Source: Pseudovibrio exalbescens DSM 16456 (GTDB lineage: Bacteria; Pseudomonadota; Alphaproteobacteria; Rhizobiales; Stappiaceae). Taken from it: 64,000 nt of DNA. This document shows, piece by piece, positions 5,199 through 42,103 of this stretch. The stretch spans positions 217,748 through 281,747 of the forward strand of contig NZ_KE383918.1 in the NCBI RefSeq assembly GCF_000422785.1. Direction: 5' to 3'. Within the stretch, counting starts at the first letter, position 1. Each line of letters begins with the position of its first letter. A program made the position numbers and the translations under genes. The notes under the pieces were generated by a model. The model worked only from the letters and a program-made list of their open reading frames with translations. It did no database searches and was not told where the DNA came from.

Positions 5199-5332
5199 AA
5201 AACACGTTACAGAGATATCAGGATTCCGGTGAACTACTTAAGGCGAGCCGGGATTCTGAGCACTGGTCGTGACGTGTGCTGCGCGTCATCAAGGGCTCGG
5301 CCCGAACAGGTTTTGGGTACACCACCAGTCTA

Positions 5333-5550
5333 AGCGGGAGAGATCGCCACCCGGGCGTCCGGGGCTCAGGCGACGCCGAAGGAGCAACCGCCCCGGAAAC
5401 TCTCAGGCTGAAGGACCGCTTGGTAAGCAGCACTCTGGAAAGCAGGCACACTGAGTTGAATCAGGGGGTGCCTCACCGAAGGAGTAATCGGGTTCATCAT
5501 CGATGATTGACCCGGGAAATCTCTCAGGTTGTCGGGACAGAGGGGGCACA
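5333..5550 (+). promoter_or_regulatory. Tandem glycine riboswitch
   Basis: Two glycine aptamers in series. Aptamer 1 (about 5335-5440) contains GGAGAG, GCCGAAGGAGCAA, GGAAACTCTCAGGC and AAGGACCG. Aptamer 2 (about 5445-5550) contains CACCGAAGGAGTAA, GGGAAATCTCTCAGG and CGGGACAGAGGGGGC. These conserved cores are specific to the gcvT-type riboswitch. It sits ~55 bases upstream of gcvT, heading the glycine cleavage genes, and would be expected to switch the operon on when glycine is abundant. I see no clear intrinsic terminator between the second aptamer and gcvT, so control may be at translation. Confidence 0.95.
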
Positions 5551-13828: not shown

Positions 13829-14026
13829 GATCGTCATCCTCCCTTTGTCAGCCAGACGGTAAGCTGCGGTTGGTGGGCTGTCCGCCCGCGCAATCAAGGG
13901 GAGGCATCGCGTCTACGTATGGCTGCGTAGCGTAATGTGCTGCAACACAATTTCATTTGTCCAAATCCGCGCCGCGCACTAGGTTGCCCCTTGGGAGCCG
14001 GGAAGCAAGAAAAGGATAATCGACAC

Positions 14027-14695
14027 ATGATCGATGTGATCATTTGGGATTGCGATGGCTGCCTGATTGACAGCGAGCATCTGTCTGCCCAAGCCGAAGC
14101 TGAATGCCTGCGCGAAGTAGGGCTGGAGATTGATGCTCAGGGCGTCATCGATCGATTTACGGGCATGATGGGCCGTGATCTGTTTGTCGTACTGGAAAAG
14201 GAACTGGGCCGGGATGTGTCCGGCCACCCAGCCTTTGGCCAGCTTTATGAGCGCGTTTTCGAGATTTTCGAGCGCGAGTTGCAGCCTGTGACCGGAATTC
14301 ACGAAGCGCTGGCTGCACTCGACCCTGTGCCGATGGCCGTTGCGTCAGGTGCATCGCATCGTCACCTGAAGTTTGGGTTGTCCCATACCGGTCTATACGA
14401 TCGGTTCGAGGGGCGCATTGTCTCGGCGCAGGATGTCCCGCGCGGCAAACCTGCACCGGATGTGTTCCTGCGCGCTGCTGAAATCATGAATGTGGATCCT
14501 GCCCGTTGCCTTGTCATTGAGGACAGCCCGCGCGGCATGCAAGGGGCCCACGCTGCTGGCATGAAAAGCTTTGGTTTTACGGGCGCAACACATGGCGGTG
14601 CCAGGCTGCACAAGCAGCTTGAAGCAGAGAATCCGGCACTCATCTTTGATGACATGAGCCAGTTGCCGGGTCTTTTTACTAAATTTATTCAATAG
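14027..14695 (+). CDS. HAD-superfamily phosphatase (subfamily IA)
   Basis: About 222 residues. The catalytic DCDGCLIDSE is at residues 8-17, the threonine/serine motif is in PMAVASGASHRH, the lysine motif is PRGKPAPDVFLRAA, and the acidic motif is VIEDSPRGMQGAHAAGM. It resembles phosphoglycolate phosphatase or beta-phosphoglucomutase-like enzymes that hydrolyse small sugar phosphates; the substrate cannot be assigned. The ATG at 14027 lies 10 bases after AAGGA; the frame extends upstream without homology. It ends ~75 bases before the tyrS leader, and no terminator is seen between them. Confidence 0.9.
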   Translation: MIDVIIWDCDGCLIDSEHLSAQAEAECLREVGLEIDAQGVIDRFTGMMGRDLFVVLEKELGRDVSGHPAFGQLYERVFEIFERELQPVTGIHEALAALDPVPMAVASGASHRHLKFGLSHTGLYDRFEGRIVSAQDVPRGKPAPDVFLRAAEIMNVDPARCLVIEDSPRGMQGAHAAGMKSFGFTGATHGGARLHKQLEAENPALIFDDMSQLPGLFTKFIQ

Positions 14696-14732
14696 GTTAA
14701 GCGAATGAGGGTAGCGGCGAACCTAAAGTCTA

Positions 14733-14762
14733 TTGACTTTTCCTGAAATTCGTCGCTATCTC
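14733..14762 (+). promoter_or_regulatory. Predicted promoter of the tyrS leader transcript
   Basis: TTGACT at 14733-14738, a 17-base spacer, then CTATCT at 14756-14761. This fits the alphaproteobacterial sigma-70 pattern (TTGAC with CTAT-type -10). A start point ~7 bases past the -10 would fall at 14768-14769, on the A of the leader peptide ATG. Confidence 0.6.
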
Positions 14763-14768
14763 TTGCCC

Positions 14769-14852
14769 ATGAGCAAGATGCAGTCGATCCTCAGCACGGT
14801 TTATTATTACGCAAGCCACATATCTGCGGCTTGTGTTCGCCCGTGCTCATGA
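14769..14852 (+). CDS. Putative tyrosine leader peptide (27 aa) of tyrS
   Basis: A short reading frame of 27 codons ending in TGA. Codons 12-14 are TAT TAT TAC (14802-14810), three tyrosines in a row, directly upstream of tyrS. No Shine-Dalgarno precedes the ATG, but the predicted promoter would start the transcript at or next to that ATG, so it may be leaderless, as reported for the trp leader of Sinorhizobium. A second in-frame ATG lies at 14778. The Tyr codons end exactly where strand 1 of the attenuator begins. Its likely role is to sense charged tRNA-Tyr by ribosome stalling. The name tyrL would be natural, but I know of no established usage. Confidence 0.75.
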   Translation: MSKMQSILSTVYYYASHISAACVRPCS

Positions 14853-14905
14853 CAAAAAGCATCAACTGAACATCAAAGCCGCCGCCAGGCGGCTTGTTCA
14901 TTTTT
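14809..14905 (+). promoter_or_regulatory. Putative transcription attenuator controlling tyrS
   Basis: Four segments give alternative structures. 1:2 hairpin: 14809-14817 with 14828-14836 (9 pairs, one G-U, 10-base loop). 2:3 antiterminator: 14826-14832 with 14876-14882 (7 pairs), extended by 14834-14838 with 14868-14872 (5 pairs). 3:4 terminator: 14876-14883 with 14888-14895 (8 perfect pairs, GCCA loop), followed by GTTCATTTTT. The Tyr codons abut strand 1. A ribosome stalled there would mask strand 1 and free strand 2 to pair with 3 (readthrough); a ribosome reaching the stop at 14850-14852 would disturb 2:3 and allow 3:4 (termination). Confidence 0.78.
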
Positions 14906-14936
14906 GGGCCCCTGTGCGGCAACAGGAGACCTGAAA

Positions 14937-16211
14937 ATGACTATTCATGCAACTATCGATACCACACGCAATTTCCGCCCCAAATCGGAAGCACTCGCGC
15001 TTCTCATAGAGCGCGGGTTCCTGCACCAATGTACGGATCTGGAGGCATTGGATGCCAAGCTTGTGGAAGGGCGTGTCACTGCCTACGCTGGCTTTGACGC
15101 CACTGCTGATAGCCTCCATGTGGGGCATCTGTTGCCGCTCATGGCCATGCGGTGGTTGCAGAAGCTGGATCACAAGCCAATTCTGTTGATTGGGGGTGGT
15201 ACCACCCGCATCGGTGATCCCAGTTTCCGCACAGAAAGCCGCCCCATGCTGGATGATGCCGCGATTGAGCGCAACTTGCGCGGCATTCGTGACACGGTTG
15301 AGCGCCTCTTTGATCTTTCAGAGGGGGAGGGGCGCATGGTCAATAACGCCGAATGGTTGGATGAGTTCCGCTTTCTTGAGTTCCTCAGAGACTTCGGGAC
15401 CCACTTCACCGTGAACCGGATGATGACTTTCGACAGTGTACGCTCTCGGCTGGATGCTCAACAACCGCTGTCCGTGTTGGAGTTCTGCTACATGATGCTG
15501 CAAGCGGTTGATTTTGTAGAGCTGAACAAACGCTTTGACTGCACCCTTCAGATTGGTGGCTCTGATCAGTGGGGCAACATCGTCAATGGGGTTGATCTGG
15601 GTCGCCGCTCGGGCAACCAGCTGTTTGGCTTCACTTTGCCACTGCTGACCACTGCCTCGGGTGCCAAAATGGGAAAAACAGCCGACGGAGCGGTTTGGCT
15701 CAACCCCAGCCGCCTGTCCAGTTTCGACTTCTGGCAGTTCTGGCGTAACACGGCAGATGCTGATGTTGTGCGCTTCCTCAAGCTGTTTACCGATTTGCCG
15801 CTCTCCGAAATTGATCGGTTGGCTCGTCTGGAGGGGCAAGAGGTCAACGAAGCCAAGAAAATTCTGGCCACGCAAGTCACCAGCATTGTTCACGGGCCGG
15901 AGGCCGCTCGCGCTGCGATGGAGCAGGGTGAGGCTTTGTTTTCTGGCAAGGAGGATGGCACACAGCCAACCCATGTCTTGTCCGCAGACCTGCTGGATGG
16001 ATCCTTGGGGCTTCTTTCATTGCTGGTGAGGCTCGGCTTTGCTGGGTCCAACAGCGAGGCTCGCCGTCTTGTTCAGGGCAACAGCGTGCGCGTTAACGGG
16101 GAGTTGGAAACTGATGATCGACGCCAGCTTACCCGCAACGATACGCGGGAGGATCGCACTCTTTCCATCGCCGTAGGGCGCAAACGCAAGGCCCTTGTTC
16201 AGTTTGGGTAG
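14937..16211 (+). CDS. tyrS: Tyrosyl-tRNA synthetase
   Basis: About 424 residues. It charges tRNA-Tyr. Class I signatures: HVGHLLPL (HIGH equivalent) and KMGKT in TTASGAKMGKTADGAVWLNP (KMSKS equivalent); tyrosine-pocket stretch YAGFDATADSLHVGH and the QIGGSDQWGNI block. The C-terminus has the S4-like RNA-binding domain (LLVRLGFAGSNSEARRLVQG, VRVNGE). The ATG at 14937 has AGGAG eight bases upstream. It stands alone, 32 bases after the predicted attenuator terminator, which fits dedicated control by tyrosine supply. Confidence 0.97.
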   Translation: MTIHATIDTTRNFRPKSEALALLIERGFLHQCTDLEALDAKLVEGRVTAYAGFDATADSLHVGHLLPLMAMRWLQKLDHKPILLIGGGTTRIGDPSFRTESRPMLDDAAIERNLRGIRDTVERLFDLSEGEGRMVNNAEWLDEFRFLEFLRDFGTHFTVNRMMTFDSVRSRLDAQQPLSVLEFCYMMLQAVDFVELNKRFDCTLQIGGSDQWGNIVNGVDLGRRSGNQLFGFTLPLLTTASGAKMGKTADGAVWLNPSRLSSFDFWQFWRNTADADVVRFLKLFTDLPLSEIDRLARLEGQEVNEAKKILATQVTSIVHGPEAARAAMEQGEALFSGKEDGTQPTHVLSADLLDGSLGLLSLLVRLGFAGSNSEARRLVQGNSVRVNGELETDDRRQLTRNDTREDRTLSIAVGRKRKALVQFG

Positions 16212-16239
16212 ACGCGTGTGCCAATTTTGACACCAGCCA

Positions 16240-16275
16240 CAACGTCATCCCCGCTTTCAAGCGGGGATGACGTTG
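16240..16275 (+). repeat. 36-bp perfect inverted repeat after tyrS
   Basis: A 17-base arm (16240-16256) is followed by TC and its exact complement (16259-16275). It contains the GTCATCCCCGC core typical of interspersed palindromes in alphaproteobacterial genomes. There is no T-tract, so it is a poor terminator by itself but could stop or protect transcripts from both sides (tyrS and the minus-strand gene that follows). I noticed no second copy in the window. Confidence 0.8.
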
Positions 16276-16306
16276 CAAGGGCACAAGTACGGGCGCTGTT
16301 CTTCAA

Positions 16307-16990
16307 TCAAACAAAGCTGTTAATGAACTGAAGCACGGCGGCCCGCTGGTTATTGGCATTACCTTCGAACCAGGCCAACGGCAGATACTCTGCATTGGTG
16401 CACAAAGGGATCTGGGGTCCGGCTGCCGGTGGCACCGTAAACACGGCATTTTGAGCATTGACGCCAAGGTTCATCAGGTGTTGGAACAAACCCGGGTAGG
16501 TGTTGTTGTAGTAGGCGATCACTTCCTCCTTGCGGATCAGGTAGTGTCCCCAGTGTGATCGTTCCGGGTGTCCGGGGGAGAAGTCGCGGATCCTGATGGG
16601 AAGCCCTTCAGTGGGGTGGTGCGGGCCTTGTGCATCCTGAAAGTGCAGATAAATGCCGCTGGGCATGCGATCCACAATGCCGCCGAATACGGTTGCGCGG
16701 TTCAGGAGCTCCATCCATTCAAGGATTTCGTCCCGTGTGTTGCCGGGTGCAAAGCTGAAGGCCGGCGCGGCTTGCCCGGCAGCTTGCGCGAAAAAGGAGA
16801 TATGACGCGCGGGTCTGTCGAACATGCCAAATCCCGAGCGATGCAGCGGTCTGAGGCGTAGGAAATTGCCCGCATTGTTCATGAAATAGAGGGACGGCAT
16901 CTGATCGTTGGCAACTTCATTGGTATCAGTCAGCCGAACTGTGCCGAAGATGATGTTGTCCTGATGGATGAGGGGAACCGGTGTTTGCAT
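16307..16990 (-). CDS. Unknown protein, paralogue of the adjacent gene (A)
   Basis: 227 residues, predicted soluble, no signal peptide or membrane segment, no motif I recognise. It aligns over its length with the next gene upstream: shared blocks include QDN-hydrophobic-FG followed by RLTD, PSLYFM, LRLRP-HRSGF, RP-R, the segment ending YYNNTYPG and a C-terminal FINSFV-like end. The pattern (short beta-rich N-terminal half, conserved HRSG, then a helical C-terminal part) suggests one compact domain. A GGAG lies ~10 bases before the ATG. It probably forms a two-gene transcript with its paralogue, 44 bases apart. Function unknown. Confidence 0.8.
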   Translation of the reverse strand: MQTPVPLIHQDNIIFGTVRLTDTNEVANDQMPSLYFMNNAGNFLRLRPLHRSGFGMFDRPARHISFFAQAAGQAAPAFSFAPGNTRDEILEWMELLNRATVFGGIVDRMPSGIYLHFQDAQGPHHPTEGLPIRIRDFSPGHPERSHWGHYLIRKEEVIAYYNNTYPGLFQHLMNLGVNAQNAVFTVPPAAGPQIPLCTNAEYLPLAWFEGNANNQRAAVLQFINSFV

Positions 16991-18010: not shown

Positions 18011-19499
<1,489 letters not shown>

Positions 19500-41598: not shown

Positions 41599-41825
41599 CC
41601 ACGCAAGTGCAAGTGATTCTCAACGAGAGTGAAGGCGTCCGCACAGCGCATGGGGAAGGGGCTCTTGGCCGTTGGCGAAAGAGACCTTCGCCGCGGTGTT
41701 TCGCCGCGTCCGCACAGGCAGGTAGGCACCGCACCACAGGAAACGGTGGACTAGGTGTTACTGCGGTATTGCGTTATCGTGGGACCGCATGGTCATAAGG
41801 CGCAGCTTCCGGTTTGCGCTGGAAG
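41599..41825. other. Region between maeB and the lysine riboswitch
   Basis: About 230 bases without an ORF I trust. Small stems occur (GGCGAA with TTCGCC near 41674-41692), but none has a T-tract, so no clear maeB terminator is visible. TTGCGT and TCATAA with ~18-base spacing near 41768-41797 may form the promoter of the riboswitch transcript. A stem GCTTCC/GGAAGC lies at about 41807-41826. Confidence 0.4.
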
Positions 41826-42014
41826 CAAGTAGAGGCGCATCGCGTTATCACTACGCCGGATGAGGGGGCACCCGAAGATCCCGGCGGAAAGGAGCCGATG
41901 CCGAAGAGACCCGGATGGCGATCCCGGTCTCTGGGGCTGCATTGAACAAGTGCAGCACTGCCATAGGAATTCCCCGTCTGCGCGGGGGTAACAATGACTA
42001 TGGAGCGCTACTGA
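41826..42014 (+). promoter_or_regulatory. Lysine riboswitch (L box)
   Basis: All conserved parts of the lysine aptamer are in order: GTAGAGGCGC (41829-41838), GGAAAGGAGC, GCCGAAG, CTGGGGCTGCATTGAAC, GTGCAGCACTGCCAT and closing GGAGCGCTACT (42002-42012). GTAG and CTAC close P1. It ends ~90 bases before an NhaC-family transporter gene. A local GTAG at 42016-42019 could compete for the P1 CTAC, and a GGAG/CTCC stem follows (42018-42050), but there is no T-tract; I could not settle whether control is at transcription or translation. Lysine would be expected to shut expression off. Confidence 0.95.
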
Positions 42015-42103
42015 GGTAGGAGAGCCGCCATTTGCTGGCTCCCATCCGCGACCACCGTCGTATTCAGAAGCCTCCATCGTTTTGACAAAAGAAGTAACAA
42101 ACG

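Follow-up and report, generated by a model that had tools for sequence, protein, structure and literature searches.

In Firmicutes, uncharged tRNA-Tyr raises expression of the tyrosyl-tRNA synthetase (TyrRS) gene through the T box; in gammaproteobacteria, pheST is preceded by a leader carrying phenylalanine codons; and in Streptomyces, the gene of an auxiliary, antibiotic-resistant tryptophanyl-tRNA synthetase (TrpRS) is reportedly under attenuation control. One source names the pheST attenuator, predicts attenuation for trpS and leuS and places tyrosine under T boxes (PMC1262725), and a second describes B. subtilis tyrZ, encoding an auxiliary TyrRS, as being under a T box together with a MarR regulator (PMC9437257). 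For trpL of S. meliloti, a leaderless start is reported in two further papers (PMC10117765, PMC7298713). Control of this type has long been known for tryptophan, and in the literature searched, which included few subscription papers, we found no description of a tyrosine leader for tyrS.

Here, we analyzed a putative leader of this kind situated upstream of the second of two tyrosyl-tRNA synthetase genes, hereafter tyrS2, in a 64-kb stretch of Pseudovibrio-like (Stappiaceae) DNA (the window). Its layout is akin to that of alphaproteobacterial trpL/rnTrpL, with an open reading frame (ORF) predicted to begin at the RNA start, a run of control codons, and GGCGGC, GCCGCC and GGCGGC as strands 2, 3 and 4, respectively; it departs from trpL in carrying Tyr instead of Trp codons and in that it would regulate a second synthetase and not trpE. 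With the Streptomyces auxiliary trpS attenuator it shares a spare synthetase and leader codons for the synthetase's own amino acid, whereas the amino acid and the phylum differ. The gammaproteobacterial pheST likewise has an attenuator before a synthetase gene, but this is a housekeeping synthetase, with Phe codons and in another lineage. Finally, the Firmicutes tyrS/tyrZ T box also makes a TyrRS gene answer to tRNA-Tyr charging, as we propose for tyrS2, although the T-box RNA binds the tRNA directly, without a leader ORF. We consider it very probable, on the strength of the comparative analysis below, that the locus is a trp-type ribosome-mediated transcription attenuator which responds to the charging of tRNA-Tyr and governs an auxiliary TyrRS. 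The features are as follows, R1 designating a model of the Stappiaceae leaders, window included.

14733..14761, plus strand: likely promoter, with a -35 box TTGACT (14733-14738), a 17-nt spacer and a -10-like CTATCT (14756-14761)
14769..14852, plus strand: leader ORF, 27 codons and TGA, probably leaderless
14802..14810, plus strand: control codons TAT TAT TAC (codons 12-14)
14809..14817, plus strand: strand 1, forming 9 pairs with 14828-14836
14826..14839, plus strand: strand 2 (5' arm of the antiterminator), pairing with 14867-14882
14867..14883, plus strand: strand 3, common to antiterminator and terminator
14888..14899, plus strand: strand 4, core GGCGGCTT, the outer GTTC pairing with GAAC of strand 3
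14901..14905, plus strand: terminator U run TTTTT
14769..14907, plus strand: whole attenuator RNA as matched by R1 (83.1 bits, E 1.7e-17; R1 built partly from the window)
14937..16211, plus strand: tyrS2, second tyrosyl-tRNA synthetase gene and proposed regulated gene (NCBIfam TIGR00234, Pfam)

Direct translation and the coordinates agree with the initial annotation in every respect that concerns the leader frame: it comprises 27 codons, holds TAT TAT TAC at codons 12-14 and ends 84 bases before the tyrS ATG at 14937, its translation (14769-14852) being MSKMQSILSTVYYYASHISAACVRPCS. Within the window, this is the sole frame of 10-40 codons to contain adjacent tyrosines (it has two nested ATG starts), and the minus strand holds none; of the two starts, 14769 alone combines a correctly spaced TTGAC box with a terminator-like hairpin; the leader frame is more than chance. 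The -10-like element was picked by eye; transcription is likely to start at 14769 or within 1-2 nt of it. A generic promoter scan of 14000-16500 returned no promoter for either the leader start or the tyrS2 start.

The tyrS2 product scores 369 bits against the NCBIfam tyrS model TIGR00234 (cut-off 113.8), contains the Pfam domains tRNA-synt_1b, SYY_C-terminal and S4, and keeps the motifs HVGH, KMGKT, YMMLQAVD (the YxxxQxxD stretch) and GGSDQWGN, residues to which we presumably may assign the class I catalytic and tyrosine-pocket roles. By family model and motifs it is a predicted functional TyrRS. The genome of the window carries another tyrS (G000:C4:167575-168807), 54% identical to tyrS2, and the leader-bearing gene is the second copy, not the housekeeping gene. 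Among 37 sampled Stappiaceae genomes, the window's own included, 26 have a whole tyrS2, one a broken copy (G011) and 10 a single tyrS. The leader of the broken copy (L200), which belongs to the window's genus, is still recognized by R1 and is without adjacent Tyr codons. Downstream of tyrS2 in the window, a minus-strand gene at 18011-19138 resembles by eye an adenine DNA methyltransferase (CcrM-like), and sequence similar to it adjoins tyrS2 at two further loci (L016 and L023).

In a quick tree of 67 chosen TyrRS rows, the 20 alphaproteobacterial leader-bearing proteins fall outside a group of 43 TyrRS without known leader (SH-aLRT 94). A recent duplication of tyrS inside Stappiaceae, modeled as a tree that keeps tyrS1 and tyrS2 together, was rejected (p-AU 6e-9, the groups having been named after the tree was seen). 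A single origin of the 20 leader-bearing proteins is neither shown nor rejected (p-AU 0.48); the leader label requires two changes on the 67-row tree, in which long branches leave the deep joins unsure.

Pairing and folding analyses indicate that antiterminator and terminator are mutually exclusive, with strand 3 in common. Of the three helices put forward in the initial annotation, 1:2 and 3:4 fold at the coordinates given there; the position of 2:3 was likewise recovered, but in place of 12 pairs with one internal loop it folds as 14 pairs (14826-14839 with 14867-14882) with a 2-nt bulge, at -21.5 kcal/mol and a z-score of -3.34. The 3:4 helix has 8 pairs (14876-14883 with 14888-14895; z -4.23), extended by the outer GAAC/GUUC stem and followed by the U run, which is interrupted in the window. 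Against 200 shuffles, the region 14764-14910 as a whole reaches a folding z of -5.35. A generic scan of 14000-16500 gave three terminator-like sites with 2.7 expected, which is not above chance. At Rfam gathering scores, no family matched at the leader, and no family of Rfam 15 matched at E up to 0.01 in 10 loci that included the window (L001) and L017. A T-box identity was rejected, there being no Rfam T-box match in the window. The sole gathering matches in the window are a lysine riboswitch (41822-42018) and a glycine riboswitch (5325-5428).

The relatives compared within Stappiaceae were Pseudovibrio, Roseibium/Labrenzia and Pannonibacter. An ATG-started leader with adjacent Tyr codons precedes tyrS2 in 26/26 sampled genomes with a whole copy, and overall we collected 76 leader loci, in two sets that overlap in organisms, which reduce to 53 distinct leaders with one representative each. 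In all 53, at least two Tyr codons are adjacent, and the conservation of the Tyr run and helices in relatives, on which the initial annotation had staked its reading, was indeed encountered. Of 80 tyrS loci from named genomes, all 50 at 63-84% identity carry the leader. For the 30 loci at 58% identity or less, a 350-nt scan for short YY, YxY or YxxY frames flagged four (L102, L103, L107 and L110); L102 and L107 are Pseudomonas leaders, whereas L103 and L110 do not show the layout seen here, and their flags were taken as chance. R1 matches at E 8e-11 or better occur in 67 of 87 Stappiaceae genomes, comprising 67/67 of genera g1-g4 and 0/20 of genera g5-g7.

All 53 distinct leaders have a TTGAC motif that starts 34-38 nt ahead of their ATG. 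So short an interval can hardly accommodate an untranslated 5' region, and the leader transcript is therefore probably leaderless. The register between codons and RNA strands is similarly fixed. The strand-2 core follows the first base of the last Tyr codon by 17 nt in 48 leaders, 18 nt in two (the window, L001, and L031) and 20 nt in three, and with the size of the ribosome footprint in mind, the control codons are placed such that a ribosome stalled on them would mask strand 1 and free strand 2. In the four Stappiaceae trpL leaders with a WWW run, the corresponding distances are 13, 16, 16 and 17 nt, compared with 17-20 nt for tyrS2; three of these precede chorismate-binding/GATase genes (anthranilate synthase domains) and one a TrpE-clade3 gene, and R1 picks them up weakly. 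The control codons themselves number only two or three Tyr, often with an adjoining Phe codon. The stop codon lies 10 nt (36 leaders), 16 nt (8), 24 nt (2) or 25 nt (1) after the start of the strand-2 core, positions at which a ribosome undergoing termination would occlude a large part of strand 2. In the three leaders whose stops come latest (L001, L031 and L037), the 1:2 helices are the strongest, at -14.0 to -15.1 kcal/mol versus a mean of -8.9 kcal/mol.

These observations suggest a model in which transcription would begin at the leader ATG or immediately beside it, and a ribosome would consequently load on a leaderless message. When Tyr-tRNA is plentiful, the ribosome would reach the stop codon and either cover strand 2 or leave 1:2 paired; both ways, the 3:4 terminator would form and RNA synthesis would end near 14905. 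When Tyr-tRNA is scarce, the ribosome would stall on the Tyr run and cover strand 1, strand 2 remaining free 17-20 nt downstream; 2:3 would then form, the terminator would be blocked and tyrS2 transcribed.

One alternative, which we regard as improbable, is that the leader works mainly via its products, a short RNA and a peptide acting in trans, as is reported for rnTrpL and peTrpL of Sinorhizobium. It gains from the leaderless layout shared with trpL, for which two papers describe such action of both RNA and peptide (PMC7298713, PMC10117765). Against it, the leader peptides differ greatly outside the Tyr run, and lack of translation does not abolish the conservation of strand 2: in 6 of the 53 leaders the stop codon lies 2 nt before the strand-2 core, and GGCGGC is retained in all six, indicating that selection there is on the RNA.

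With 60 shuffles for each leader, z falls below -1 in 53/53 leaders for 3:4, in 52/53 for 2:3 and in 25/53 for 1:2. The 3:4 helix exceeds its shuffles most (mean z -4.7), and 1:2, with a mean of -1.1, is weak in most relatives outside a few branches. Across the 53 leaders, the cells of 1:2 are paired to 98.6% in the outer and 84.9% in the inner helix, and the strand-2 core is paired with strand 3 in 97.3% of cells. When strands were swapped between leaders, the own partners were favored in 1247 of 1430 swaps for 2:3, 958 for 1:2 and 849 for 3:4, the last being a mixed result.

Covariation within Stappiaceae is weak. RNAalifold found no compensatory change within the family; in the 1:2 plus 3:4 structure, one pair is changed on both sides, no more than in shuffles, and in 2:3 none is. 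The 3:4 core is nearly invariant inside the family, so that what is seen there is conservation and not covariation. Among 22 leaders of other families, 3:4 contains three pairs changed on both sides (6 cells, compared with 0.4 in shuffles), although these leaders were found with R1, which scores 3:4 and therefore favors this helix. In the same 22 leaders, 2:3 contains two such pairs, both in a leader before a GNAT gene (L157) in which strands 2, 3 and 4 change together and which is the sole leader with compensatory change in both helices. The covarying 1:2, 2:3 and 3:4 pairs that the initial annotation had anticipated among relatives were not seen above the level of shuffles in Stappiaceae; outside the family they appeared for 3:4, and for 2:3 in L157 only.

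To follow the leader beyond Stappiaceae, we used R1 together with a second model, R2, whose input was the 22 non-Stappiaceae leaders. In the window the leader is the sole match of R1, which was built partly from it, and R2 ranks the same leader first in the window genome (E 3.6e-9), a cross-check that is not independent since the 22 leaders were found with R1. Beyond about E 1e-7, most R2 matches resemble bare terminators, and these weaker matches were excluded from the counts. With the window genome included in both, R1 matched in 45 of 397 genomes of the order at E up to 0.1 and in 13 of 385 genomes of the class at E up to 0.01.

We examined 29 R1 loci from outside the family, 17 in the order (L153-L169) and 12 in the class (L207-L218). 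According to Pfam, the downstream gene is a tyrS in four (L154, L156, L164 and L207), a prephenate dehydrogenase in three with YY leaders (L160, L165 and L212), a DAHP synthase in four (class I for L153 and L155, class II for L213 and L218) and a GNAT acetyltransferase in 11 (L157-L159, L161-L163, L166, L167, L169, L208 and L209). The remaining seven (L168, L210, L211 and L214-L217) look like chance terminators. The peptides before tyrS read NYYATLP (two), RYYATFP and VYFARLP, the last with a single Tyr and a Phe. Of the 22 non-family leaders, 15 have a TTGAC 33-39 nt ahead of their start. Further R2 matches precede GNAT genes (L232 and L233) and DAHP synthases (class I for L236 and L242, class II for L243).

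The leader at L212 sits between two prephenate dehydrogenase genes. In the DAHP synthase leaders (L153, L155, L213, L218, L236, L242 and L243), the codons are a mixture of Trp, Tyr and Phe, for example SFWYFY and LYFARYFTRWY, and the leaders of GNAT genes are aromatic as well (SYFWLYL, WYF, YWY). One R2 match (L241) precedes a trpS (TIGR00233 above cut-off) with a WW leader, FIWWRSF, and a similar strand layout.

The leader is tied to tyrS copy number. All four genomes with a tyrS leader outside the family (G414, G361, G298 and G734) contain two tyrS genes, and five other checked genomes contain one. In a census of the 397 genomes of the order at E up to 1e-60, two tyrS matches were found in 17 genomes, one in 368 and none in 12. 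The 17 consist of 13 Stappiaceae together with G298, G361, G414 and G322; an R1 match is present in 16 of them, the exception being G322, whose second tyrS match spans only residues 178-400. Among the loci examined, no R1 match in a single-copy genome lies before tyrS, and 35 alphaproteobacterial tyrS loci, housekeeping or single-copy, were all without an R1 match.

A tyrS match at E up to 1e-100 was also encountered in 3 of 59 sampled Pseudomonas genomes, centre genome included. Tyr leaders stand before accessory tyrS genes at L102/L117, L107/L114 and L118, and none was seen before tyrS at L119. The peptides read RYYRYATSN (L102, 2844-3000), RYRRYATSS (L107) and RYRYYASSF (L118), and these leaders have a conserved hairpin without an obvious U run. 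R1 gave no match at four Pseudomonas tyrS loci, and a plasmid search with L102 returned nothing.

The Pseudomonas arrangement, a Tyr leader and hairpin without obvious U run, indicates that other outputs of such a sensor may exist, and it lends something to a second alternative, in which the Stappiaceae leader acts on translation or on Rho access, stalling either opening the tyrS2 ribosome site or blocking Rho. A poor U tail, with five T in the 14 nt past GGCGGC, is found in three of the 53 Stappiaceae leaders as well (L024, L068 and L069). We nevertheless hold this alternative to be highly improbable, as the other 50 have at least seven T in this interval and the helix that exceeds its shuffles most is precisely 3:4. 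Equally slight are the prospects that the hairpin simply terminates a conserved short RNA or the transcript of a small protein gene, with the tyrS2 promoter further downstream: a short RNA is expected under either reading and the promoter scan was blank for both starts, but in the 53 distinct leaders the tyrS match begins only 40-107 nt past the core hairpin (some matches beginning a few codons inside the gene), the spacing between the Tyr run and the strand-2 copy of the terminator arm is fixed, and other tyrosine or aromatic genes are preceded by the same layout.

Taken together, the conserved Tyr run, the helices, their fixed register and the link to the second tyrS support the ribosome-mediated attenuation reading of the initial annotation. 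Codon run, strands, register, conservation, promoter spacing and the association with a second tyrS are all directly visible in the sequences, and from them we infer a leaderless start, termination, stalling and induction.

If the attenuation model is true, tyrosine and a spare TyrRS would join the cases of leader-peptide attenuation, and tyrS could track tRNA charging without a T box. A wider and more speculative possibility, which we consider rather doubtful, is that one leaderless GGCGGC/GCCGCC/GGCGGC design serves as a general alphaproteobacterial sensor of failing aromatic tRNA charging, its codon run being exchanged to suit the gene that follows: the spare TyrRS, a TrpRS, prephenate dehydrogenase, DAHP synthases or GNAT acetyltransferases. 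In that case, a protective arm made up of the spare TyrRS and the GNATs would respond to starvation or poisoning of the housekeeping synthetase, an amino-acid analogue being one conceivable poison. Judged by their related leaders, the prephenate dehydrogenase, DAHP synthase and GNAT genes may make up an aromatic regulon. Moreover, the tie to the second and not the housekeeping TyrRS makes the purpose of duplicated synthetases testable, raising the questions of what lowers the charging of Tyr-tRNA and whether TyrRS2 tolerates that cause.
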